Origin: Phycisphaerae bacterium
GTDB taxonomy: Bacteria > Planctomycetota > Phycisphaerae > Phycisphaerales > SM1A02
Assembly (NCBI GenBank): GCA_016873315.1
Contig: VGXL01000006.1
Location: 1 to 47,309 of the forward strand
Direction: 5' to 3'
Length of the DNA stretch: 47,309 nucleotides
This document shows, piece after piece, positions 33,019-47,309 of the stretch. Below the pieces are notes generated by a model. The model was not told the origin of the DNA, did no database searches, and saw only the letters and a program-made list of their open reading frames with translations. The translations under genes and the position numbers were made by a program. Numbering within the stretch: the first letter of the stretch is position 1; each line of letters opens with the position of its first letter.

Positions 33019-35574
33019 TCAGGGCGTCCACGAAGTGAGCAGGATGCCCAAGTCGGCGCCGTCGACGACGCCGTCGGAGTTGAGATCGCCTGCGCCACCG
33101 GTCGCCCAACTGGTCAGCAAGATGCCGAGGTCAGCACCATTGACTACACCGTCGCCATTCAGATCGCCCTGCACTGGCGGTGGGCAGGTCGGACCGTTCT
33201 GGATCAGCGTGAGCTGTCCGCTGCCCTGATAGGTGGCCGCACTGAAGCCGCCCACTGCGATCAGGTACTTCTGGCCGCAGACGGCTGGGAAGGTGAGCTT
33301 GCTCGTGAAGCCGCCGCAGCCTGGGCCGTCATCGTTGCAGGCAATCGTCGACGACGGCATGCACGAGGTCATCACGGCCAAGCGCGTATCGTGATCCGCG
33401 GCGTTGCAGGTGGACACCGTGCACTCGCCGGCACGCTCAGCGGTGTACTCAAACCACACGGCATTCCAGATGGTCGTATTGCCTGACGACCCGATCGCGC
33501 ATGACCCCGCAAGGTCCAGGTCGTGCGTCGCATCGGCGCGGTTGAAGGGCGTGCTGCCAAGCCCAATGGTTTGGGGGTCGGTGCATGATCGCCCGACGGG
33601 TCCTTCGCTCACCCTGAGCGTGGCTTCGCCCGCCGATGAATCAATGCCACCCACTCGAATCGTCACAGGCACTCCAGCGGGAAGTTCGACGACGAGGTTG
33701 GAGCGAAGCGGCAGGCACGACGATCCGTTTCCATCGTCGTTGCACGCAATCAAGACGCCACCAGCGTTGGGGCACGCGGTCCACGCCTCGATGACGGTGT
33801 CGAACGGAGCGGTCCCGCCGCCGCCGCATGTGTCGAAGTTGTACGCGCCGGTCTGGGGCGGCACGAAGAGGAAGAAGACATCGCGGCCGATGGTGATCCC
33901 ATCGCAGGTCGGCACTGTTGTCTCGGCGGAAGCCAGCGTGGTCGAGAAGTTGATCGACTGCCCGAGGATGACGGGTACTGCTGTGGCGCACTCGTCGCTG
34001 CCGCCGAGCGATCCCCCCGACCCGCCGCAAGTTTCGCAGTAGGAACGCGCGAAGGACGCGCAGATCGCGTCCCAGGTGATCGCGCAGCAGAACGCGTCGA
34101 TGCCGCAGACTCGCTCGCAGCATGCGGTGTCCGAGCAGAAGGGCTGTCCAGCTTCGTGCGCTAGGCAGCAGCCGAGCGCGCCTGGGTCATCGCAACTCGG
34201 ACGCGTGCCCACGAATTGCACGAAGAGCGAGGCCTCGCCGATGGCACCGTCCCAGCCACCAACCCGAATGATGTACGGCTCACCCGCAGTCGTGGAACCA
34301 AGATTGACATACAGGCTCGAAGCGAACTGCAGATCGGAGCCCGTTTGGAGATTGCATTGGTCTCCGTCGTCGTTGCAGGCGATGGGCGAACCACCCGCGG
34401 TCGGACATCCGCGCCAAACTTCGATTCCGGAGTCGAAGTACGGGCCGCTCGCGCCCTGCTCACAGGTCGAGATCAGGTAGTCGCCCTCGAGTCCGATGGG
34501 AGGACGGAAGAGGAAGTACACGTCCTTGGTGAAGGACGCACCGGCGTATCCACAGGATGCCTGCTGGAAGTTCGTCAGGGCAAAGCGATTCGAGAAGGGG
34601 ATGAGCACCGACGGATTCGGGTCACCTTGGTCGGGAAGGATGATCGGCGTGGCGCCTCCGCATGTGTCGTTCAGTGGTGGATTGGCATTGCATGGCTCCC
34701 CGCTGAGTCGAAGCACATACTGATTCGATGGGCTCGACGCAGACGGTGGGAACGGAATCCCCGTGAAAGCATCGGGCGCCACGAACACCTGGTAGTAGCC
34801 AGGGGCAAGGCAGACCTGTCCGGTCGACGGGCACTCGCCAGTCTCGGCACTCGACTGCGTCACCATGAGCAGGTTGTTGCAATCGCCTTCCCGCAGGATC
34901 GCCGCGAAGCACAGCGCCTCGGAGAAGACCTCGAGCTTGACCATGGTCGCGGTGGCGATGGAGAGTTCGTACCAGTCGGTATCACGCTGCGCGGCCCCGC
35001 CTTGAGGTTGGAACGCCCAGGTGCATCCCAGGATCGCGTCACCCACGACGAGTTCCTGATTCGCTGGACTGCCGCAGCTCCCGTTCAGCTCCTGCAGGCA
35101 CTCCTCGGTCTCGGTCTTGTTGTGCGCCGGCAGCGTGCAGTCGTTCGAGCACGCGGCACCACACAGTGACCGTGCCAACAGGGCACAGCCGCCGTCCCAC
35201 TGGGACTCGCAACAGTAGGGATCGTTCGTGCACACTGTGCCGCAACAGGCGGCGTCGTCGCAGCCCAAGCCAGTGTGCGGCTGGCAGCAGTCACCGTTGC
35301 CGCAGCGGCAGTCTTCGCAGATGTCGACCGCCTTGTTGGCGCAGATTGCATCCCACTGGGACTCGCAGCAGAATGGATCGAGGGCGCACACCGCGTTGCA
35401 ACATGCGACATTCGCGCATCCAGCTGCTGTGCCCGCCGTGCAGCACTCTTGGCTGGACGCAACGCAGTCGACAGCCTGCGCTCGCGACGCGCCAAGCCAT
35501 GCCATGCAGCACAAGGCAAGGAGCGCCAACGCGCGGGTCATGAAGGGCAACAACAGTGAACGAGGGGAACGCAT
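33019..35574 (-). CDS. secreted Cys-rich protein with beta-sandwich repeats and dockerin-like C-terminus (851 aa)
   Basis: An exported protein with a signal peptide to about residue 34 (WLGASRAQA). Three copies of the same Cys module as in the neighbouring gene are seen: two at the N-terminus (e.g. CCESQWDAICANKAVDIC) and one in the middle (CCAITWDAICASFARSYC). Between and after them are three beta-rich domains of about 130 residues resembling pre-peptidase C-terminal folds, each with an F-D-T/S-x-I-E-like strand, an ACNDDG turn and a final RVGG strand. Two dockerin-like repeats end the protein (DLNGDGVVNGADLGILLTSW and a second copy). The start is ATG 35574; 35589 and 35541 are alternatives and none has a good ribosome-binding site. 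Function unknown. Confidence 0.82.
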   Translation of the reverse strand: MRSPRSLLLPFMTRALALLALCCMAWLGASRAQAVDCVASSQECCTAGTAAGCANVACCNAVCALDPFCCESQWDAICANKAVDICEDCRCGNGDCCQPHTGLGCDDAACCGTVCTNDPYCCESQWDGGCALLARSLCGAACSNDCTLPAHNKTETEECLQELNGSCGSPANQELVVGDAILGCTWAFQPQGGAAQRDTDWYELSIATATMVKLEVFSEALCFAAILREGDCNNLLMVTQSSAETGECPSTGQVCLAPGYYQVFVAPDAFTGIPFPPSASSPSNQYVLRLSGEPCNANPPLNDTCGGATPIILPDQGDPNPSVLIPFSNRFALTNFQQASCGYAGASFTKDVYFLFRPPIGLEGDYLISTCEQGASGPYFDSGIEVWRGCPTAGGSPIACNDDGDQCNLQTGSDLQFASSLYVNLGSTTAGEPYIIRVGGWDGAIGEASLFVQFVGTRPSCDDPGALGCCLAHEAGQPFCSDTACCERVCGIDAFCCAITWDAICASFARSYCETCGGSGGSLGGSDECATAVPVILGQSINFSTTLASAETTVPTCDGITIGRDVFFLFVPPQTGAYNFDTCGGGGTAPFDTVIEAWTACPNAGGVLIACNDDGNGSSCLPLRSNLVVELPAGVPVTIRVGGIDSSAGEATLRVSEGPVGRSCTDPQTIGLGSTPFNRADATHDLDLAGSCAIGSSGNTTIWNAVWFEYTAERAGECTVSTCNAADHDTRLAVMTSCMPSSTIACNDDGPGCGGFTSKLTFPAVCGQKYLIAVGGFSAATYQGSGQLTLIQNGPTCPPPVQGDLNGDGVVNGADLGILLTSWATGGAGDLNSDGVVDGADLGILLTSWTP

Positions 35575-35685
35575 CGTGTGGGCCTGCAAACGGACAAGAT
35601 CCCGCCGTGGGGACCGTACGGGACAACTATCGGATCATGCGGGCCAGAGGTCAACCGAACCAGACAAGATCCGCGCGATCCGTCC

Positions 35686-35757: not shown

Positions 35758-38208
35758 TCACTGGCAAGGCAGGCCGAAGACTGCGAGGAAGGCGCCAAGG
35801 TCGGCACCGTCCGTCACACCGTCGCCGTTCATGTCGCCTGCGGCGCTGACGCCGAAGGCGGCCAGGAGGGCGCCAAGGTCGGCACCGTCACGGTTGCCGT
35901 CGCCGGTGAAGTCACCCTGGCACGGCGTGCTGCAGTTCGTCCCGTTGGCCGTGGTCACCGACATGGTGCCCGTGCCAAGGGCCGTGGTGGCGCTGTAGCC
36001 ACCGACCAGGATGTAGTACTCCTGGCCGCAGACCGCGTCGAAGGTGAGCAGGCTGGTGAAGCCGGCGCAACCCGTGCCGTCGTCGTTGCAGGCGACGACC
36101 GTGCTGGCCGCGCAACCGGTCTGCACCGACAGGCGCGTGTCGTGATTCGCCGTGTTGCAGGTCGACACCGTGTAGGTGCCGCTCTGGGTCGGGGCGAACT
36201 TGTGCCACACCACGTTGAAGTTGGTGTCGGTGCCGAACTGGCCCATGTCGCAGACGCCAGCGTAATCCAGATCTTCGGTTGCACCCGCTCGGTCGAACGG
36301 CGTGTCGCCCGCCTGGATCGCGATGGCATTGGCGCACGTCAGGCCTGGGGTGCCACCGCCGCCGCCGCCGCCCTCAGCGGTGATCGCCAGCGTGCCGGTG
36401 CCGAAGCCCGTTGCGGCGTACGCGCCGACACGGATCTTCACGACTTGGCCAGCCGTCGCCGCGAAGACAACCTCGCTGGTGAAGCCGGCGCAACCCGCGC
36501 CGTCATCGTTGCACGCGATGATGTTGCCGCCGCAGGCATCCAGCACATCGATGCGGGTGTCGAACGTCGCCTGACCGCAGGTGCTGGCCTTGAAGTTGCC
36601 AGCGCTGGGGGCAGTGAAGTTGAACCACACGTCGTTGTAGAAACCTGCACCGAAGGCGCCGCACTGCGCACCCGTCGGGTTGCTGCCGTCGGTGGTCGCA
36701 CCGTTTGTGTCGAACGGATGGTTGCCCAGACCGACCGACTGCGCATCAGCGCAGTTGTCGTTCGCAGGCGGGCCGCCGCCGCCACCGCCGCCACAGTTGG
36801 CGCATCCGGCAACCGCGGCATCGGCACAGATCTGGTCCCACTGTGTGTTGCAGCAGTACGCATCGGCCGCACAAATCACCGTGCAGCATTCGACATCGGC
36901 GCAGCCGGGGCCCGTGCCCGCCACGCAGCAGTCGCCTCCGCTGCCGCAACCGCCGCCACCACCGCCGCCACTGCAGTCGCCCTGGACGGCGCAGTCGCCG
37001 CCGTCGAAGCCGAACTGTTCGCAGTTCAGGCAAATCGCGACGCCGCCGTAGGAGTAGGTGCCGTCATCGCAATAGCCGTCGGCAACCCAAGTCTCGGGGC
37101 AGCAGTTGCCGTTGCAGTCCTCGATCTGGCCGGCCGGGCAGGAACCCGCCGACGCGGCAATGACGAGTTCGGTCGCGCCAGTCGCGCCGTTCCAGCCACC
37201 GACCAGGATGGTGTAGGTCACGCCCGCGGTGCCTTCGAACACAAGGCTCGAGGCGAAGGCCGTGCAGCCGGGACCGTCATCGTTGCACGCGATCTGCGTT
37301 CCACCCGCGTCAGGGCAACCGTCGAACACTTCGATGCCGGTGTCGAACGGAGCCGAACCGCTGCAGGTTTCAAGGGCCCAGAAGCCCGTGGTCGCGGGAG
37401 TGAAGGTGAAGAAGACTTCCTTCGTGAAGGGCGCGCCGTTGAAGCCGCAGCTCGGGACACCCCAGTCGGTGTTGGCAAAGGTGTTGTCGAAGGCATTGGG
37501 GCCCTCGACCGCAACCGCTGCGTTGGCGCAGGTGTCGTTGGCGGGCGGGTTTGCATCGCACGCGATGCCATTGATCTTCAGTGTGTAGTCGTTCGGGATC
37601 GTTCCGCCGCAGGGGAAGCTGTCGAAGACGCTGGGCAGGGCCACGATGTAGTAGGTCCCAGGCGCAACGCACACCGCGCCCGTGCCCGGGCAGGCACCGC
37701 TGGTCGGAGCGCCAACAATCCCGCCGCACCCTGAGTCGACCACCGCCGCGAAGCAGGGGATGTTCGAGTAGATCTCGAGGCTGATCTCCGTGGCCTCGGT
37801 CAAGGTCAGTTGGAACCAGTCGGTGTCACGGGTTCCGCCGAGGGCATAGAAGGTGCCGCTGATTTGCGCACCGAGCGCGGTCGCGTCGTAGGTGCCACCG
37901 TTGCAACCGCCATTGATGTCGTCGCCGCAGGCAGTTTCCGACTCGGAGCTTGTGCCGGCAGGAATCGTGCAGTTGGTCGTCCCGCAGTCGCCGCCGTCAT
38001 TGCCGTACTGATCGCAGTTCAGGAAGATGGGGATGCCGTTCCACGAGTAGGTGCCGTCATCGCAGTATCCGTCGCCGACCCAGCCTTCTGGGCAACAGTT
38101 GCCATTGCAGTCGGGGATTTCGCCGGCGGGACACTGAGCCAAGGCGGTGCTCGCCGAGGCAAGCAGCGTCGCCGCGCTGGCGAGCATGCTGAAGTGGAAG
38201 CGCTTCAT
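35758..38208 (-). CDS. secreted Cys-rich protein with LNR-like and dockerin-like repeats (816 aa)
   Basis: An exported protein with signal peptide to about residue 24 (ASASTALA-QC). Two copies of a repeat CPAGxIxDCNGNCCPExWV... ending in a DGGDC motif recall the Lin-12/Notch repeat, a Ca2+-binding disulfide module. One Cys module of the type found in the two neighbouring genes is also present (CCTVICAADAYCCNTQWD). About four beta-sandwich domains carry the IACNDDG(P/A)GC turn and a RVG / LVGG strand; Gly-rich linkers join them. Two dockerin-like repeats end the protein (DFTGDGNRDGADLGALLAAF and DMNGDGVTDGADLGAFLAVF). GAGGAG before ATG 38208 fixes the start; the much longer upstream frame lacks one. 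Function unknown; probably surface or extracellular. Confidence 0.87.
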   Translation of the reverse strand: MKRFHFSMLASAATLLASASTALAQCPAGEIPDCNGNCCPEGWVGDGYCDDGTYSWNGIPIFLNCDQYGNDGGDCGTTNCTIPAGTSSESETACGDDINGGCNGGTYDATALGAQISGTFYALGGTRDTDWFQLTLTEATEISLEIYSNIPCFAAVVDSGCGGIVGAPTSGACPGTGAVCVAPGTYYIVALPSVFDSFPCGGTIPNDYTLKINGIACDANPPANDTCANAAVAVEGPNAFDNTFANTDWGVPSCGFNGAPFTKEVFFTFTPATTGFWALETCSGSAPFDTGIEVFDGCPDAGGTQIACNDDGPGCTAFASSLVFEGTAGVTYTILVGGWNGATGATELVIAASAGSCPAGQIEDCNGNCCPETWVADGYCDDGTYSYGGVAICLNCEQFGFDGGDCAVQGDCSGGGGGGGCGSGGDCCVAGTGPGCADVECCTVICAADAYCCNTQWDQICADAAVAGCANCGGGGGGGPPANDNCADAQSVGLGNHPFDTNGATTDGSNPTGAQCGAFGAGFYNDVWFNFTAPSAGNFKASTCGQATFDTRIDVLDACGGNIIACNDDGAGCAGFTSEVVFAATAGQVVKIRVGAYAATGFGTGTLAITAEGGGGGGGTPGLTCANAIAIQAGDTPFDRAGATEDLDYAGVCDMGQFGTDTNFNVVWHKFAPTQSGTYTVSTCNTANHDTRLSVQTGCAASTVVACNDDGTGCAGFTSLLTFDAVCGQEYYILVGGYSATTALGTGTMSVTTANGTNCSTPCQGDFTGDGNRDGADLGALLAAFGVSAAGDMNGDGVTDGADLGAFLAVFGLPCQ

Positions 38209-38504
38209 CGTTCTGGTCTCCTCATAAGTGTGATTGAACGGACTCGATACTGATCGAAACATCGGGCGTTGGTGTCGTCCTCGGACGACGGGAACGGAAT
38301 CGCTCGGTACGGAGCGGACTTGTGACCATAACTCAAGAGTGGCAGGATCCAAATCCGAATCTCGAAACCGGATCAATTCCTCAGTCGGGTCCCCCCCCGG
38401 TCGTCCTGTTGGTCCGCTTCGCGATCGCAGCGCGGCCAAGCGACCTAGGTTCGTTGTCCGAATCTCGGACGCCGGCTCCGGATCCGTCCGAAGCTCCATC
38501 CCGA
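38209..38504. other. intergenic region upstream of the LNR-like gene
   Basis: About 296 bp without a gene. It holds the promoter region for the minus-strand LNR-like gene and the 3' end region of the CvpA-like gene. A perfect inverted repeat GTCGTCC-TC-GGACGAC lies at 38274-38289, and an AT-richer patch near 38320-38360. No convincing -35/-10 pair was identified. Confidence 0.4.
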
Positions 38505-40157
38505 TCAATAGCCGTATCCCTCGACGACGGTGTAGTTGCACGAACCGACGGGTGAGTCGCCCACGCTCACGCCCTTGATGACCGCGTTCAAGGTCGGCGC
38601 GAAGATCAGATGCAGCGTCTGGTCGCCGGATGAACTCACGCTCGGAAGATCCTCGAGCCTCGTGATCGGTTTCGTTGCGTCCATGCGGACTCGAACCTTG
38701 TCCTTCTGCTGCCAGAAGTACCCGATCGGCTGGAAGGTGCGCCCGTTGGCGTCAACGAGCACGAGCGGCTTGTCCTTGAACTGTCGCTTGAGCTCGTGGA
38801 GATCGACCGCAGCCTTGCCTCGTGTCACATTCAGTCGAACGATGGCGGTGCCATCGGGTGCGAAGAACCCCTTGATGGCGCCGCTCTTCGACGCGGTGGA
38901 GAAGCCGCCCTTCGGGAACTCGTAATCGCCCTGCTTGAGGAAGTTCGACTTCTTGCCCTCGAACGCAACGAAGGTTCCGATGTTGTTCAGGTTCAATTGC
39001 AGCGGGCTGATCGAATTCACATTGTCGATGCCGTCGGCACCATCGGGAATCTCGCGTGCGCTGGAGAAGTCGATCGGGGCTGCGCTTGCGGAAGAACCGC
39101 CTTCCACTTCGAGCACTGAAGCCATCGCCTTGCCTTCAGGTTGGGGCAGGCGGATGCGAAGCCCCTTCACGAACACATAGTCGGGCGTTTCACCACCAAA
39201 CGCGGCTGACGGGAAGACCAAGACGACCTTGGCGGTCTGCGTCCCTGGCGCGCTCGTCACATAGTTTGCCGTGTCATCGAACGGGAAGAGTTCGCGTCCT
39301 GACTGGGCGCCATCTTGTGTCCACTGAAGCGGGAAGGCCACTGCGCGGTTCTTCGTCGAGAGCAGGCGAGCCTGCGCGCCGGTCATGATGAACTGCTCGC
39401 CTCCGTCGTAGGTGTTCGCGTCGAAGGTGACCCCGACCGCGTAGGCCCCGGGTTGACCATCGGCGACGGAGTACTTGTCGTCGTACCAGAAGCCATCGAG
39501 CTTGACGCCCGAAGGCGCCACGGCAGTGCGACCGACACCACCACTCCATGTGTCACGATGCAGACCGAACGCCACATCGGCCACATTCGGCTGGAGCTTG
39601 GCAAGGCCGAGCGACGAGAATGGACGGAATGCACCCATGCCGCCGCGGCCGCCGAGCGTGTTGTAGACCGCTTCGGTGACTCGCATCGGATCGGGGAGCG
39701 GGTCCATCGAGTTCAGGCGGCCCGGCTGCGCGCTGCTGGCTTGGTCGCGCACGAAGCCTCGGTAGCCGATCACCTCGTTCGTGCTCTGGATGAAGCCGCA
39801 TGCAATGCCGGCCATGCCGATGCACAGAACGCCCGCCGCGAGGCCGAAGATGGCGCCGCCGAGCTTGTCGACCAGCGGGTGAAAGCGCATGTTGGCAGGG
39901 ATGAACCGCTCAGTGACCACGCGCGCCACCACCAGGTAGACGGTGAACTGACCGCCGAGCGAAAGCCCCCACGCGTAGTTGTCGATGAGTCCGCCGCGAA
40001 GCATCAGGTGTGCGCCCGGCTCCCAGAAAGCGAGTGCGAGTGCACCAGCGCACAGCGTGCACAGGAAGAACTGCACACTGCTGAAGAAGCCCTGAGCTGA
40101 CCACCAGTAAGCGATCAGCGCGATGAGGACCCAGAGAATGATCGAGAAGGTGTCCAT
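38505..40157 (-). CDS. CvpA-like membrane protein with long unique C-terminal domain
   Basis: A 550-residue protein. Residues 1-130 contain four hydrophobic helices with CvpA-like features (SIILWVLIALIAYWWSAQGF, GQFTVYLVVARVVTERFIP, and a final helix LAAGVLCIGMAGIACGF after VDKLGGAIFGL). CvpA proteins are linked to envelope homeostasis and, in E. coli, colicin V production. The other 420 residues are soluble, beta-rich and unlike CvpA, with VLVFPSAAFGGETPDYVFVKG and IGTFVAFEGKKSNFL. GAGGAA before ATG 40157 supports the start. It is the last gene of a three-gene minus-strand operon, 16 bp after the pseudo-GspE gene. What the soluble domain does is unknown; location outside the membrane is assumed. 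Confidence 0.8.
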   Translation of the reverse strand: MDTFSIILWVLIALIAYWWSAQGFFSSVQFFLCTLCAGALALAFWEPGAHLMLRGGLIDNYAWGLSLGGQFTVYLVVARVVTERFIPANMRFHPLVDKLGGAIFGLAAGVLCIGMAGIACGFIQSTNEVIGYRGFVRDQASSAQPGRLNSMDPLPDPMRVTEAVYNTLGGRGGMGAFRPFSSLGLAKLQPNVADVAFGLHRDTWSGGVGRTAVAPSGVKLDGFWYDDKYSVADGQPGAYAVGVTFDANTYDGGEQFIMTGAQARLLSTKNRAVAFPLQWTQDGAQSGRELFPFDDTANYVTSAPGTQTAKVVLVFPSAAFGGETPDYVFVKGLRIRLPQPEGKAMASVLEVEGGSSASAAPIDFSSAREIPDGADGIDNVNSISPLQLNLNNIGTFVAFEGKKSNFLKQGDYEFPKGGFSTASKSGAIKGFFAPDGTAIVRLNVTRGKAAVDLHELKRQFKDKPLVLVDANGRTFQPIGYFWQQKDKVRVRMDATKPITRLEDLPSVSSSGDQTLHLIFAPTLNAVIKGVSVGDSPVGSCNYTVVEGYGY

Positions 40158-40173
40158 GGTCGTTCCTCAGGCA

Positions 40174-41979
40174 TCAGGACTTCGGTGCCTGCTTCGGCGG
40201 TGCCGGTGGCGCCTTGGCGCTGCCCGTCTTCGGTGTGGGTGGCGCAGCCTTCGCGCCGCCAGTCGCGGGCGCAGTCGGCGCGGCGGGCTTCGCTCCTCCG
40301 GCGGCGGGAGAAACCGGCTTGGCAACCGCGAACGCGCGCGCCACCTCGTCGACGGTGCTGCGTCCTTCGCGGACGGCCATGAGCGCCGATTCCTGCATCA
40401 ACATCATGCGCAGATTGCGTCGAGCGTGCTGGTACGCACCGGCGATGTCGCCGCGCGAAAGCAGTTTGCGCGCTTCGTCGTCGAGCGGCATGACTTCATG
40501 GATGCCGGTCAGTCCGAAGTAGCCAGTGCCACGGCAGGTTTCGCACTGCTCCTCGCGACCGTTCTTGCCTAAGACCTTGCCGTTGGCGCGAGCCAAATCG
40601 ATGGTCTTGCCGGCAGGAAGTCCAAGGCGCTTGGCCTGGTCAGCCGAACACGGTCCCATGACCTTGCACGCGGGGCAGGGGATGCGAAGCAGGCGCTGCG
40701 CCACCACGGCCTTGACTCCGCGCGCTGCATCGCCCGCGCTGCCCACGGCCTTGATCCACTGCGCCAGAGCGAGTTGAACGCCGTCGACGGGTAGGGCGAC
40801 ATATGTCAGCACATGGTTGCTGGCGGTATCGCTGATGACCTTGGCAGTTCCTGGCTCCGCGACGTCGGACGCGAAGACGACATCCGGCCCGCGGCGGATG
40901 ATCGACCTGAGGGTGGTCGCGAAATCAGATTGCGCGGCGGGATCGAACTCCAACTGGTCCACGCCGTCGATCCGAAGATCGACGCTGCGCTCGAGCGTCT
41001 TCACGCTGCTGGTGAACGCATCGTGCCGTGACAACATGGCGTAGGCCATCGTCGTCAGACCGAAGCCCGTCGGTGCGCAGAGCAGGATGATGCCCTCGCG
41101 ACCCGGTGGATCGCGCGTGGGCTCGAGCAACGCCAGATGCTGCTTCGTGAGCCCAAGGTCGGCGAAGTCGCGCTTGAGTTGTTCATCGCGATTGAAGTCG
41201 ATTCGCATCGACTGGCCTGCCGACGACCCGGCGGTGGTGACGGTGAGTTCCTTCGATCCAAGGTTCGTCTGCACCGTGACCTTGCCCACTTGCCGACGCC
41301 GACGCTCCTGAACATCCAGCCCGGCGTGCAACTTGATGTAATCGATGGCTTTCCCGCCAAGTTCGGTGGTCAGCGGATCCCGCTTGGAGGGGATGGCATC
41401 GACCACATCGACCACCGCGATGCTGCCTTGGACGGTCCGCAACTCGGTCCGGCTCGCGCGCGCGGCGATCCCTTCACCGATCACTCGCTCGGCCGCTTGG
41501 TGCACCTCGAACATCGGGTCATCCTTGCCGGGGACCTTGGCCTTTTCGGCGCGTCCGACGAGGAAGACGAGATTGGCCGCAGCAGCATTCTTCTGCGCCT
41601 TGCGCTCCTCGACCCGTTCCTTGAGCTGCGAGAGCATCGAGAGCTGGAACTGCTTGCCAGGTGGGACCTGCTTGTCGCGCCAGCGCCAGTAGGCCATCAG
41701 GATGCCGGCCTCGAGCAGCAGCGTGATCAGCCAGCCCGCGAACGGAACGAGCAAGCCCAGCGCGACCGCGACGATGCCCCCGGCCATGAGCAAGGGATTG
41801 ATCCAGCCGTAGCCGCCCCGGTTGAGGTTGTATGCCGTCGCATCCTTCTCGATCTTTGACGAGATCAGCCATGCATAGGGTGCGTACGCGGCAAGCGTGA
41901 GCACCGGAGTGACCGGGTTCAGCAGGATCGCCGCGTCGCCGACGGCCAGAAGGGCAGTGTTCATGGTGGTCAGGCTCAT
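40174..41979 (-). CDS. membrane-anchored GspE/PilB homologue with degenerate ATPase motifs
   Basis: A 601-residue relative of type II secretion / type IV pilus assembly ATPases, unusual in three ways. First, residues 1-100 hold about three membrane helices, absent from normal GspE. Second, the P-loop reads APTGFGLTT (302-310): the invariant Lys is Leu308. Third, the Walker B region reads DVVFASDVAE (366-375) where family members have a GEIRD-type motif, and the His-box second His is lost. The zinc-binding cysteines are kept (Cys435, Cys438, Cys479, Cys482), with CETCRGTGYFGLTGIHEV matching the family well. The C-terminal 60 residues are Ala/Pro/Lys-rich. It is probably a non-hydrolysing structural subunit, perhaps paired with the intact PilT encoded 33 bp upstream. 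Confidence 0.9.
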   Translation of the reverse strand: MSLTTMNTALLAVGDAAILLNPVTPVLTLAAYAPYAWLISSKIEKDATAYNLNRGGYGWINPLLMAGGIVAVALGLLVPFAGWLITLLLEAGILMAYWRWRDKQVPPGKQFQLSMLSQLKERVEERKAQKNAAAANLVFLVGRAEKAKVPGKDDPMFEVHQAAERVIGEGIAARASRTELRTVQGSIAVVDVVDAIPSKRDPLTTELGGKAIDYIKLHAGLDVQERRRRQVGKVTVQTNLGSKELTVTTAGSSAGQSMRIDFNRDEQLKRDFADLGLTKQHLALLEPTRDPPGREGIILLCAPTGFGLTTMAYAMLSRHDAFTSSVKTLERSVDLRIDGVDQLEFDPAAQSDFATTLRSIIRRGPDVVFASDVAEPGTAKVISDTASNHVLTYVALPVDGVQLALAQWIKAVGSAGDAARGVKAVVAQRLLRIPCPACKVMGPCSADQAKRLGLPAGKTIDLARANGKVLGKNGREEQCETCRGTGYFGLTGIHEVMPLDDEARKLLSRGDIAGAYQHARRNLRMMLMQESALMAVREGRSTVDEVARAFAVAKPVSPAAGGAKPAAPTAPATGGAKAAPPTPKTGSAKAPPAPPKQAPKS

Positions 41980-42012
41980 CGTGGGCTGTTCATCGTGAAT
42001 CCCGTGGGTGGC

Positions 42013-43152
42013 TCACCGGATGCCCTTCAGGCGCATCTTGAGTTCTTCGGGCTTGGGCGTCGCCTGCAGTGCGACATTCTGGTGGACATACTCGCTCTCG
42101 ACCAGGCCGACGAGGCTGCTCGTGAAGTCCAGCATGCCTTCGTGGTGGCTCTTCTTGATGATCTCGAGCAGTTCACCCTCGCGGCCTTCGAGGATGTACT
42201 TCTGCACGCCGGGCGTGTTGATCAGGATTTCGATCGCGGGGATGCGGCCGATGTTGGCGTGCAGCGTGGGCAGGAGCTTCTGGTAGATGATGGCGCGCAA
42301 GTTGTAGGCCATGAGCTTTCGGATCTGTTCGCGTTCCTGTTCAGGGAACAGGTCGTAAATGCGGCCGAAGGTCTGCCATGCGCTCGAGGCGTGAATCGTT
42401 CCGAACACCAAGTGGCCGGTTTCGGCCGCGCGGATCGCGGCTTCGAAGGTCTCGTAGTCGCGCATTTCACCGACCAGCACGACGTCGGGGTTTTCACGGA
42501 CGAGCGCGCGCAACGCGTCGTTGAAGTTCGTGCAGTCGATGCCGATCTCGCGTTGATTGATCGTCGCCTTCTTGTCCTCGAAGATGTACTCGATCGGGTC
42601 CTCGATCGTGATGATGTGGACCTTCTTGCGCTCGTTCACGTAGTCGAGCATGCTGGCGATGCTGGTGCTCTTGCCGGAACCCGTCACCCCGCTGAAGAGA
42701 ATCAGTCCCTGCGCCGCCATGGCGACATCGCCGAGCGAGGGCGGAAGGAACAGATCCTCGAACTTCTTGATCTTGCTGGTGATCAGGCGCGCCGCGAGTG
42801 CCGGCTTGCCGCGCGCCATGAACATGTTCACGCGGAAGCGGCGGCCCTTCTCGAAGTCGTACGCGAAGTCGACCGACCCCATGCGCTCGAAGTGGTCGAG
42901 CTGGTTCGGGTCGAGGATGTCCTTCGCGACCTGGAACATCAGGTCCTCGCTGCAGGCCGGTGTCGCCAAATCTCTCAGGGCGCCACGGTGGCGGATGCGC
43001 GGCGGAAGTCCGGTCTTGACGATCAGGTCACTGCCGTCGAGTTGGATGATGGACGCCATCCAGCTCATCCATGCCTTCTTGCCTTCACCGGGCGTGGTGC
43101 CGCGGTTCTTGGTGCTGACTGGGACGAGGAGTTGGTTGCGCGAGATAGACAC
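42013..43152 (-). CDS. PilT/PilU-type secretion ATPase
   Basis: A 379-residue hexameric ATPase of the pilus retraction family, with all motifs intact: Walker A GVTGSGKST (155-163, Lys161), the Asp box ITIEDPIEYIFEDKK, Walker B DVVLVGEMRD (Glu229), and the His box AAETGHLVFGTIHASSA. Residues 1-130 form the PAS-like N-terminal domain. The frame is open upstream far into guaB; the start is placed at GTG 43152 because GGAG precedes it by eight bases and it gives a normal-length protein. First gene of the operon with the pseudo-GspE and CvpA-like genes. PilT versus PilU cannot be settled by eye; no pilin gene is in the window. Confidence 0.92.
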   Translation of the reverse strand: MSISRNQLLVPVSTKNRGTTPGEGKKAWMSWMASIIQLDGSDLIVKTGLPPRIRHRGALRDLATPACSEDLMFQVAKDILDPNQLDHFERMGSVDFAYDFEKGRRFRVNMFMARGKPALAARLITSKIKKFEDLFLPPSLGDVAMAAQGLILFSGVTGSGKSTSIASMLDYVNERKKVHIITIEDPIEYIFEDKKATINQREIGIDCTNFNDALRALVRENPDVVLVGEMRDYETFEAAIRAAETGHLVFGTIHASSAWQTFGRIYDLFPEQEREQIRKLMAYNLRAIIYQKLLPTLHANIGRIPAIEILINTPGVQKYILEGREGELLEIIKKSHHEGMLDFTSSLVGLVESEYVHQNVALQATPKPEELKMRLKGIR

Positions 43153-44920: not shown

Positions 44921-45010
44921 GCACCGACGCTCCGTCATCACGCTCGCTCGTGAGCCCTGAGCCGAACCGCGATCAGGACAGATCCGCGTCACGGTGGCTA
45001 GCGCCGTCCG

Positions 45011-45028
45011 TTCGGGATAGTACCCTAA
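45011..45028. promoter_or_regulatory. imperfect palindrome upstream of imuA
   Basis: TTCGGG-ATAGTA-CCCTAA forms a dyad (TTmGGG / CCCkAA) 48 bp before ATG 45076, in the region where an operator of an SOS cassette would sit. It differs from the GAAC-N4-GTTC box near lexA. It is the only clear dyad in the 45-bp stretch. Confidence 0.4.
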
Positions 45029-45075
45029 CAAACACCGTACATCAGCGCAAGGCAACGCTCTCCAGAAGGCCCGTC

Positions 45076-45840
45076 ATGCTTGCACCTGAACTCCTCGAAC
45101 GCCTCGCACTCATGCAGGATCCTTGGCAGCACCACGCTCCCACGCTGGCGGCACCGTGGCATGTGCCGTTGCACGGGGTGCACGAATGGGTGCTCGATGG
45201 CCCCATCGACCAACCGCCCATGCATGCGTTCCTCGACTTGGTGTCCGCGGCGTGCGGTCGTCATGCATCGCATGCTGATGGGGTTTCGCATGCTGAGGGG
45301 GCTTCGCATGCTGATGGGGTTTCGCATGCTGATAGAGCTTCGCAGGGTCCCGATGCCTCGGGATCGTTCGTGGCCTGGATTGGTCAAGCGGTCATGCCAT
45401 CGGCCGTGGTCATGCACCGATGGGGCATGGATCTTCGCCATCATGTTCGAGTTCCCGGTGCGCGCACGCCCACCGAACGACTCTGGGCCTTCGAAGAGGC
45501 CGCTCGATCGGGTCGTTGCGTCGCCATCGTTGTGGATGCCAGCGGATGGAACGCCGCGATGGTGCGTCGCGCCCAACTCGCCAGCGCCTGGCAGCCTGAG
45601 CGCACGCCGGTCCTGGCCTTGGCGTGGCGTCCGCAGCATGAAGCGGCGGTCCGCAGCGCCTGCACCACGCGCTGGTTGGTGCAGCCCGTGCACGATCCAA
45701 CCACGGACCACGCGCGGCCTGCATGGTGCATTCAGGCGGTTCGCGATCGACGCGGCACTCTGGATCACCAGACCGCACGCGGCATGCTGCGCGAGTCCGG
45801 CGTCGGCGCACGCGGTATGCCGTCGGCCATCGCTTCCTGA
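45076..45840 (+). CDS. imuA: ImuA-like SOS mutasome protein
   Basis: A 254-residue RecA/SulA-related protein assigned mainly by position directly before imuB (13-bp gap) and by its pattern: PWHVPLHGVHEWVLDGP near the N-terminus, SGSFVAWIG and ERLWAFEEAARSGRCVAIVVD in the core, and RRAQLASAWQPERTPVLALAW. ImuA proteins bind ImuB and recombination factors in damage-induced mutagenesis. An in-frame hexapeptide repeat (SHADGV-like, four copies) is inserted at about residues 65-88, in a loop. ATG 45076 with AGAAGG six bases upstream is chosen over longer starts. Sequence is weakly conserved, so identity is a well-supported inference rather than certain. Confidence 0.75.
   Translation: MLAPELLERLALMQDPWQHHAPTLAAPWHVPLHGVHEWVLDGPIDQPPMHAFLDLVSAACGRHASHADGVSHAEGASHADGVSHADRASQGPDASGSFVAWIGQAVMPSAVVMHRWGMDLRHHVRVPGARTPTERLWAFEEAARSGRCVAIVVDASGWNAAMVRRAQLASAWQPERTPVLALAWRPQHEAAVRSACTTRWLVQPVHDPTTDHARPAWCIQAVRDRRGTLDHQTARGMLRESGVGARGMPSAIAS
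45268..45345 (+). repeat. 18-bp tandem repeat inside imuA
   Basis: Four units of TCGCATGCTGATGGGGTT and variants at 45268-45285, 45286-45303, 45304-45321 and 45322-45339, plus a partial fifth. Because 18 is a multiple of three, the frame is kept, giving Ser-His-Ala-Asp/Glu-x-x repeats. Likely variable in copy number. Confidence 0.9.
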
Positions 45841-45853
45841 TGCGGTGTGCGCC

Positions 45854-47309
45854 ATGCAACGCTTCCTTGTCATCACGCTGCCGCACTGGTCGGTCACGGC
45901 ACGCGCGCGCTTGGTGCAGCAGCCTGTCGTGGTGGTGGTCCGCCGCAAGGGCGCGCTCATCGTGCATGCAGCAAGCAGACTTGCTCGCGCCGATGGTGTG
46001 CAGTGCGACATGCCGCTCGCCCAGGCCAAGGCGCTCATGCGGTGCGAATCGCACGACATGGAGCACGATCCCGCCGCCGACCGTCGTGCTCTGTACACCT
46101 TGGCACGCTGGTGCCAACGGATCTCGCCCTTGGTCCAGCTTGTGCACGATGATGACCACGCCGCACTCGTCATCGACCTGACGGGCCTGGAGCGTGTGCA
46201 CCGTGGCGAGGATCGCCTGCTAGCACGACTGCGCGCGCACATGGATCGCATGAGGGTCGAGTGCACCCTCTGGACGGCGTCCACGCAGGCGGCTGCCAGC
46301 GCCGCCGGTCAGGCTGCACCGAGCGGCCACGATGGCATCATCAAGCATGGCGAGGAGCGTTGGCGCACGCGTGCCTGCCCGGTCGACGCTCTGCGGATCG
46401 ATCGTGAACTCGTGGCCATGCTGCATGAAGTCAATGTGCGCACGATCGATGACCTTCGGCAGGTGCAGCGCGCCCAGATCGCCGCGCGCTTCGGCCAACG
46501 ATTGCTCGATCAACTTGATGCCATCCAGGGATTGGTGCTCGAGCCATTCCGGGCCATCCGCTGCGTGCCCGATGTGCAGGGGCACATCATCTTCGACGGC
46601 CCATGCCCGCAGGTCGAGGCACTCTGTCAGGCTGTGCAGTCCTGCTTCGAGCAGGCCTGCGCGCAGTTGCAGGATCGTGGCCGTGGCGCACGCGCCTTCA
46701 TGGTGCGGGTGCAGTGCAGTGATCTTCCACGGCATGGCTGGACCATCCGCTGCACGCAGCCCATCCAATCGTGGCATGCCGTGCGGCCACTCGTCCTGCC
46801 TTCCCTGCAGGATCTTCCGCTTGGGCATGGCGTGGAAGCGGTGCAGGTGATCGCGCGGAGCTTGCGGCGCGTGGCACCTGTGCAGGGCGGCCTGCATGGC
46901 ACGCGTCACACGGGGGAACATGGTGCGCTCTGGCTCGACAGTCTGCGCGAACGGTTCGGAGCGGGCGCGGTGTGTGTGCCCAGCGTGCGCGCCGTGCGTC
47001 GTCATGCCTGGCACGAGAGTGCGGTGGCGATCGATGCCGCCATCGAAGGCAACCAAGATGGACTTGACGGTTCCAGCACCCTGCAGGCCGTCGGCATGCA
47101 TGGCATTGACAGCATGCGTGATACGGACAGCATGCGTGGTGCGGATCCGACCCATGCTCCCGTGCACGCGCTTGCGAGCGAGCCATCATGCTTGTGGCCG
47201 CAGGCTGAGCGCATCACGGCGGCATCCCATGCCACCGATGCCCCATGGCCCACTCCGCCCCATCGATTCCGTTGGCGGGGGGCAGCGTGGCACATCATCG
47301 GCTGCCAAG
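45854..47309 (+). CDS. imuB: ImuB, catalytically inactive Y-family polymerase homologue (partial)
   Basis: The frame starts at ATG 45854 and stays open to the window edge, so the 3' end is missing (at least 485 residues). It has the Y-family layout of ImuB: N-terminal RFLVITLPHWS, then ADGVQCDMPLAQAKAL, LARWCQRISPLVQLV, ALVIDLTGLERVHRGE and the helix-hairpin-helix-like VRTIDDLRQVQRAQIAARFG. The acidic residues that bind metal in active Y polymerases (DxD at the start, DE after Ser-Leu/Ile) are absent, as in the ImuB family, which bridges ImuA, the beta clamp and DnaE2. Two copies of an 18-bp repeat lie near 47108. dnaE2 may follow beyond the window. Confidence 0.9.
   Translation, partial: MQRFLVITLPHWSVTARARLVQQPVVVVVRRKGALIVHAASRLARADGVQCDMPLAQAKALMRCESHDMEHDPAADRRALYTLARWCQRISPLVQLVHDDDHAALVIDLTGLERVHRGEDRLLARLRAHMDRMRVECTLWTASTQAAASAAGQAAPSGHDGIIKHGEERWRTRACPVDALRIDRELVAMLHEVNVRTIDDLRQVQRAQIAARFGQRLLDQLDAIQGLVLEPFRAIRCVPDVQGHIIFDGPCPQVEALCQAVQSCFEQACAQLQDRGRGARAFMVRVQCSDLPRHGWTIRCTQPIQSWHAVRPLVLPSLQDLPLGHGVEAVQVIARSLRRVAPVQGGLHGTRHTGEHGALWLDSLRERFGAGAVCVPSVRAVRRHAWHESAVAIDAAIEGNQDGLDGSSTLQAVGMHGIDSMRDTDSMRGADPTHAPVHALASEPSCLWPQAERITAASHATDAPWPTPPHRFRWRGAAWHIIGCQ
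47108..47143 (+). repeat. 18-bp direct repeat inside imuB
   Basis: GACAGCATGCGTGATACG at 47108-47125 and GACAGCATGCGTGGTGCG at 47126-47143, encoding Asp-Ser-Met-Arg-x-x twice. The unit shares GCATGC and its 18-bp length with the repeat in imuA. Confidence 0.85.

Follow-up and report, generated by a model that had tools for sequence, protein, structure and literature searches.

A predicted membrane-anchored pseudo-ATPase of the GspE/PilB family, conserved beside an intact PilT and a CvpA-like protein in a class of Planctomycetota

The window analysed here has 47,309 nucleotides and is contig C6 in a metagenome-assembled genome totalling 2.42 Mb. In it, a three-gene operon encodes a relative of the GspE/PilB ATPases that is, as judged by comparison with its homologues, a genuine and conserved pseudo-ATPase. 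A first-pass annotation, made from the DNA letters alone, had proposed that this protein is fixed in the membrane and shares an operon with a CvpA-like gene and a pilT that is intact; our survey of the class supports that proposal and shows that the three are inherited together. We refer to the pilT gene of the operon as pilT2, to the GspE/PilB relative as gspX (protein, GSPX) and to the CvpA-like gene as cvpX (protein, CVPX). The reading that we prefer, with a probability of roughly 0.45, is that the three proteins constitute an inner-membrane unit in which a non-hydrolysing, membrane-fixed ring of GSPX works with PilT2 and CVPX; the assembly of the ring, its contact with PilT and the coupling through CvpA are the parts of this reading that we infer.

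The conservation pattern suggests that a former motor subunit now has a structural or docking function in an undescribed machine. As the first-pass annotation had supposed, no description of such a system was found in the literature searched, which yielded no report on PilT with CvpA in Planctomycetes or on dead pilus ATPases; pseudo-enzymes within the PilT/GspE ATPase family likewise appear to be undescribed there. The main text of an essential-gene study of Planctopirus limnophila mentions none of pilT, gspE and cvpA. What is new here is the existence of membrane-anchored live and dead versions of one gene, with the loss of catalysis placed on a tree, a pairing that makes the non-hydrolytic contribution of a motor subunit directly testable. 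Because the protein is present in every sampled genome of the class, it may well be important to the cell envelope in this phylum, which has been little studied.

The pilT2-gspX-cvpX locus and its conservation

The operon, called at 38505-43152 in the initial reading and confirmed here, consists of three genes packed on one strand in the order pilT2, gspX, cvpX, with intergenic gaps of 33 and 16 nt (Table 1).

Table 1. Genes and protein features of the operon, in window coordinates
Feature	Coordinates	Strand	Description	Score or basis
pilT2	42013..43152	(-)	PilT-family ATPase, 379 aa, GTG start	TIGR01420 397 bits
gspX	40174..41979	(-)	Predicted membrane-anchored pseudo-GspE/PilB, 601 aa	PF00437 121 bits, E=4e-35; AlphaFold pLDDT 91.7
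GSPX transmembrane helices	41668..41913	(-)	Three N-terminal helices (residues 23-49, 60-77, 82-104)	AlphaFold and charge pattern
GSPX degenerate Walker A	41050..41076	(-)	Residues 302-310, APTGFGLTT; Leu308 at the Lys position	Homologue alignment
GSPX degenerate Walker B region	40861..40887	(-)	Residues 365-373, PDVVFASDV; catalytic Glu replaced by Asp372	Homologue alignment
GSPX lost HIS box	40789..40818	(-)	Residues 388-397, NHVLTYVALP; both His replaced (Val390, Pro397)	Homologue alignment
GSPX zinc site	40534..40677	(-)	Tetracysteine site C435/C438...C479/C482 (C2M subdomain), kept	Homologue alignment
cvpX	38505..40157	(-)	CvpA-like protein, 550 aa	PF02674 24.4 bits
CVPX membrane domain	39777..40157	(-)	Four-helix CvpA (Colicin_V) domain, residues 1-127	PF02674 in 34/42 members; AlphaFold helices
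CVPX C-terminal domain	38508..39776	(-)	Beta-rich, ~420 aa, probably periplasmic	AlphaFold pLDDT 87

Conservation was assessed in 150 genomes of the window's class, with other classes of Planctomycetota as a comparison. A GSPX match was obtained in 150/150 of the class genomes, and nearly all of these matches span the membrane domain as well. Among all fetched loci with enough flanking sequence, the gene immediately upstream of gspX is pilT in 129/147 and the one immediately downstream is cvpX in 146/154, the misses including a few artefacts that arise from overlapping reading frames. In the genomes that share the order of the window, GSPX is followed by CVPX in 40/40 of the loci fetched, and PilT precedes GSPX wherever the contig reaches that far. 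The gene order is clearly conserved beyond this genome, and since it is kept while the flanks vary (guaB, hisF or other genes upstream), the trio behaves as a unit. In one genome (L140:11237-13613) another GspE-like and a PilT-like gene follow the operon at a distance of a few kb.

Neither PilC/GspF nor pilin genes, which are linked in type IV pilus and type II secretion machines, were found beside the operon or in its conserved neighbourhood among the loci compared. The PilC genes of this genome are on other contigs, where they adjoin other GspE/PilB genes; a canonical PilT-PilB-PilC cluster with pilin-like genes is present on contig C75, and there are further GspE-PilC pairs. Because this canonical cluster is separate, it is unlikely that the operon forms the core of the ordinary pilus.

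A second guaB-pilT-gspX-cvpX block, about 85% identical to the window, occurs in the same assembly (G000:C2, 65.6-76.1 kb; L011:9482-20000). A duplication of the operon within one genome was considered and rejected, since this block is 99.98% identical over 10.5 kb, with the same synteny, to the sister genome G001 and hence represents co-binned DNA of a sister species. Elsewhere in the window, positions 44950-47309 share ~80% DNA identity with a block of the sister contig in which a DinB-family (Y-family) polymerase-like protein is encoded next to a short protein that by eye resembles ImuA. Just downstream of the operon, two genes on the minus strand (33019-35589 and 35758-38541) encode secreted Cys-rich proteins with C-terminal dockerin/EF-hand-like repeats of the form GDxNxDGxxDGADLG.

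Fold and degenerate active site of GSPX

Membership of GSPX in the GspE/PilB fold is well supported by its PF00437 score, the family cut-off being 24.9 bits, whereas against every GspE/PilB equivalog model it reaches at most 149 bits, with cut-offs of at least 617. The AlphaFold model, built with 41 homologues, consists of three membrane helices followed by a GspE-like N2 domain and a C-terminal ATPase domain, and its best fold matches in the PDB are EpsE/GspE (1p9r), PilF (5oiu) and PilB (5tsg), with a Foldseek E-value of 6e-32 to EpsE. The helices stand in the place of the N1 domains of PilB and GspE, and the charges of the connecting loops fit an N-out/C-in topology. By sequence, too, its best matches are GspE/PilB ATPases. 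GSPX shares with the canonical ATPases the N2 and C-terminal fold and the tetracysteine zinc domain; it differs from them in lacking the N1 domains, the P-loop Lys, the catalytic Glu, the arginine fingers and the HIS box, and in carrying the three helices instead.

The extent of this catalytic loss was surveyed in 148 distinct GSPX sequences of the class and in 12 distinct live homologues from two families outside it (f48 and f55), with residue numbering mapped through the 5tsg sequence (Geobacter PilB) and the roles of the residues taken from PMC5424180. The Walker A Lys, reported as lost in the window by the first-pass annotation, is found in 0/148 class sequences, where Leu (95), Arg (23), Val (10) and other residues take its place, and in 12/12 live homologues. 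The catalytic Glu (E395 of Geobacter PilB), also correctly called as missing in the window, is retained in 23/148 versus 12/12. The arginine fingers survive in 23/148 (R271-type) and 12/148 (R286-type) class sequences, and the two HIS-box histidines (H413 and H420 equivalents) in 5/148 and 7/148. In the window itself both of these histidines are gone, so that the loss of the HIS box stands and its description as a single substitution does not. No class sequence keeps more than 4 of the six catalytic residues and most keep 0-1, while all six are present in each of the 12 live relatives.

The four zinc cysteines, on the other hand, are intact as first described and are retained in 143-147/148 of the class sequences; an Arg of the N2 domain is present in 148/148. 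That the zinc site and the fold are kept while the catalytic residues are lost points to selection on the former and not on the chemistry, and the absence of the Lys from every class homologue, together with the conserved gene order, argues against chance. A decaying pseudogene lying beside pilT would also have lost its catalytic residues, but GSPX is full-length, is conserved across 150 class genomes with its zinc site intact, and evolves at a dN/dS of ~0.11-0.15 between sister species, with values of ~0.06-0.10 for pilT and again ~0.06-0.10 for CVPX, indicative of purifying selection on all three genes. Class-wide conservation and purifying selection led us to reject pseudogene decay, whose probability we regard as negligible.

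It is more conceivable, if still improbable, that GSPX is not dead and that nucleotide is bound or hydrolysed by an altered active site. The last P-loop Gly (148/148), the Ser/Thr that follows it (143/148) and one Glu of the ASP-box region (147/148) are almost invariant in the class, and Arg stands in for Lys in 23 sequences; GSPX may therefore still bind nucleotide. Against an active enzyme are the prevalence of Leu at the Lys position, the joint loss of the catalytic Glu, both arginine fingers and both HIS-box histidines, and the fact that the replacements vary freely over the class. The Thr411-type contact, which like the two arginine fingers links subunits across the nucleotide interface, is missing as well; this weighs against the ring assembly that we favour, since GSPX may then lack a normal interface between its subunits.

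Partner proteins and possible modes of action

PilT2 is the intact neighbour that it had been taken for. Its score exceeds the TIGR01420 cut-off of 319 bits, its motor motifs (GVTGSGKST, GEMRD and TIHASS) are complete, and the catalytic Lys, Glu, arginines and ASP-box Glu are present in every relative compared, with the HIS-box histidines nearly so. While PilT2 has in common with PilT and PilU both the family score and all catalytic residues, it forms a clade of its own apart from the canonical PilT of the genome (support 100), has in place of the AIRNLIRE motif VQKYILEG in the window and xVRKxIxE across the clade, and is partnered with a pseudo-GspE.

CVPX scores just below the PF02674 cut-off (29.3 bits); 34/42 homologues match the family at E<=0.01 and one outgroup member passes with 36 bits. 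Its model contains four helices (residues 3-22, 24-52, 57-85 and 94-121), as in the CvpA/Colicin V production proteins, and a beta-rich remainder that starts near residue 130. The arrangement recalls the MarP-type CvpA-protease fusions, in which a four-helix membrane domain also precedes an outer domain. The outer domain of CVPX differs: it is beta-rich, the PDB holds no match to its fold at E<=0.001, and among 42 members neither a Pfam family nor a protease family was found. The charge pattern weakly favours an outer C-terminus, and the domain is probably periplasmic.

In the preferred reading, GSPX would be a GspE/PilB subunit converted into a non-hydrolysing structural component, most likely still forming a ring at the inner face of the membrane and held there by its own three helices, an anchorage that would dispense with the N-terminal recruitment domains of the normal ATPases. 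In most lineages the hydrolysis of ATP would fall to PilT2, and CVPX, with its four helices and large outer domain, would pass a mechanical or conformational output to the periplasm. As a working analogy only, the archaellum (FlaI-FlaH) and the Dot/Icm system (DotB-DotO) combine a hydrolysing ring ATPase with a second, structural or non-hydrolysing partner of NTPase fold; neither FlaH nor DotO is known to be a dead GspE homologue with membrane helices. A stronger form of the reading would have the membrane-fixed dead GspE ring driven by a ring of live PilT, with force travelling via the CvpA domain to the large periplasmic domain of a pilin-less, class-wide envelope machine. We consider this unlikely; if true, such a machine would be a new kind of use for the pilus-motor family.

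GSPX could instead serve as a regulator or membrane tether of PilT2, holding it at the membrane or tuning the retraction of the canonical pilus or a type II secretion system. We find this explanation less likely than the preferred one, though several facts speak for it: the canonical PilT-PilB-PilC genes and further GspE-PilC pairs are available in the genome, PilT2 retains its full catalytic set, and there is a precedent for the dependence of one motor on another in PilU, which depends on PilT (PMC6762196). It sits less well with the separate clade and altered AIRNLIRE-type motif of PilT2, and it does not account for CVPX or for the outer domain of that protein.

Live relatives and the order of events

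In other classes of the phylum, genomes of families f48 and f55 encode the same membrane-anchored GspE relative beside a short CvpA protein (~200-270 aa), and its ATPase motifs are complete in 12/12 distinct sequences. The N-terminal membrane domain is homologous between live and dead forms and absent from canonical PilB/GspE: a membrane-domain HMM for which only dead sequences of the class were used detects the f48 and f55 proteins and a further family, f69, at 31-102 bits, and no canonical PilB or GspE. In a tree of the ATPase core, from which the membrane domain was left out, the membrane-anchored forms make up one clade (98/92) within which the dead forms are nested as one clade (89/95). 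Since live forms belong to the anchored clade and the dead ones are nested in it, the topology indicates that the anchor came first and that catalysis was lost later, from a live ancestor. The three helices noted in the first-pass annotation are borne out by the model; the idea that they were gained along with the loss of ATPase activity is not, for the helices are already present in relatives from other classes whose catalytic residues are intact. Homologues with an intact P-loop at the same position do exist in f48 and f55, and they give the direction of change, from live to dead, without refuting the class-wide loss of function. To judge from CVPX lengths, the CvpA protein would have been enlarged in the same lineage that lost catalysis.

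A PilT of the operon clade is adjacent in f55 and in some f48 genomes, and ~10 kb or more away in most f48 genomes. This adjacency, together with that in most class families and in f98, indicates that the neighbourhood of PilT2 is ancestral. Three class families (f11, f19 and f21; for example loci L134, L137-L139, L150 and L168) have the gspX-cvpX pair with no PilT2-type neighbour. Nor could such a PilT be recognised at any other place in the genomes sampled from these families, where the best PilT scores near canonical levels (375-426 bits versus 480-607). The persistence of the pair in these families suggests that PilT2 may be replaceable or not obligate. The core unit might then be GSPX and CVPX only, PilT2 being a frequent neighbour with a role of its own, a view to which the distant pilT2 genes of f48 and the more consistent occurrence of CvpA downstream than of PilT upstream lend some weight. 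Given the ancestral adjacency of PilT2 and the strong purifying selection on it, we hold this to be rather unlikely as well, and continue to favour a unit that includes all three proteins.

The dead clade of the tree includes one f98 sequence from outside the class (L165, genome G350), whose degenerate P-loop reads PPGHGLTTT; it lies on a very long branch, its placement is unsure, and it may represent an independent loss.
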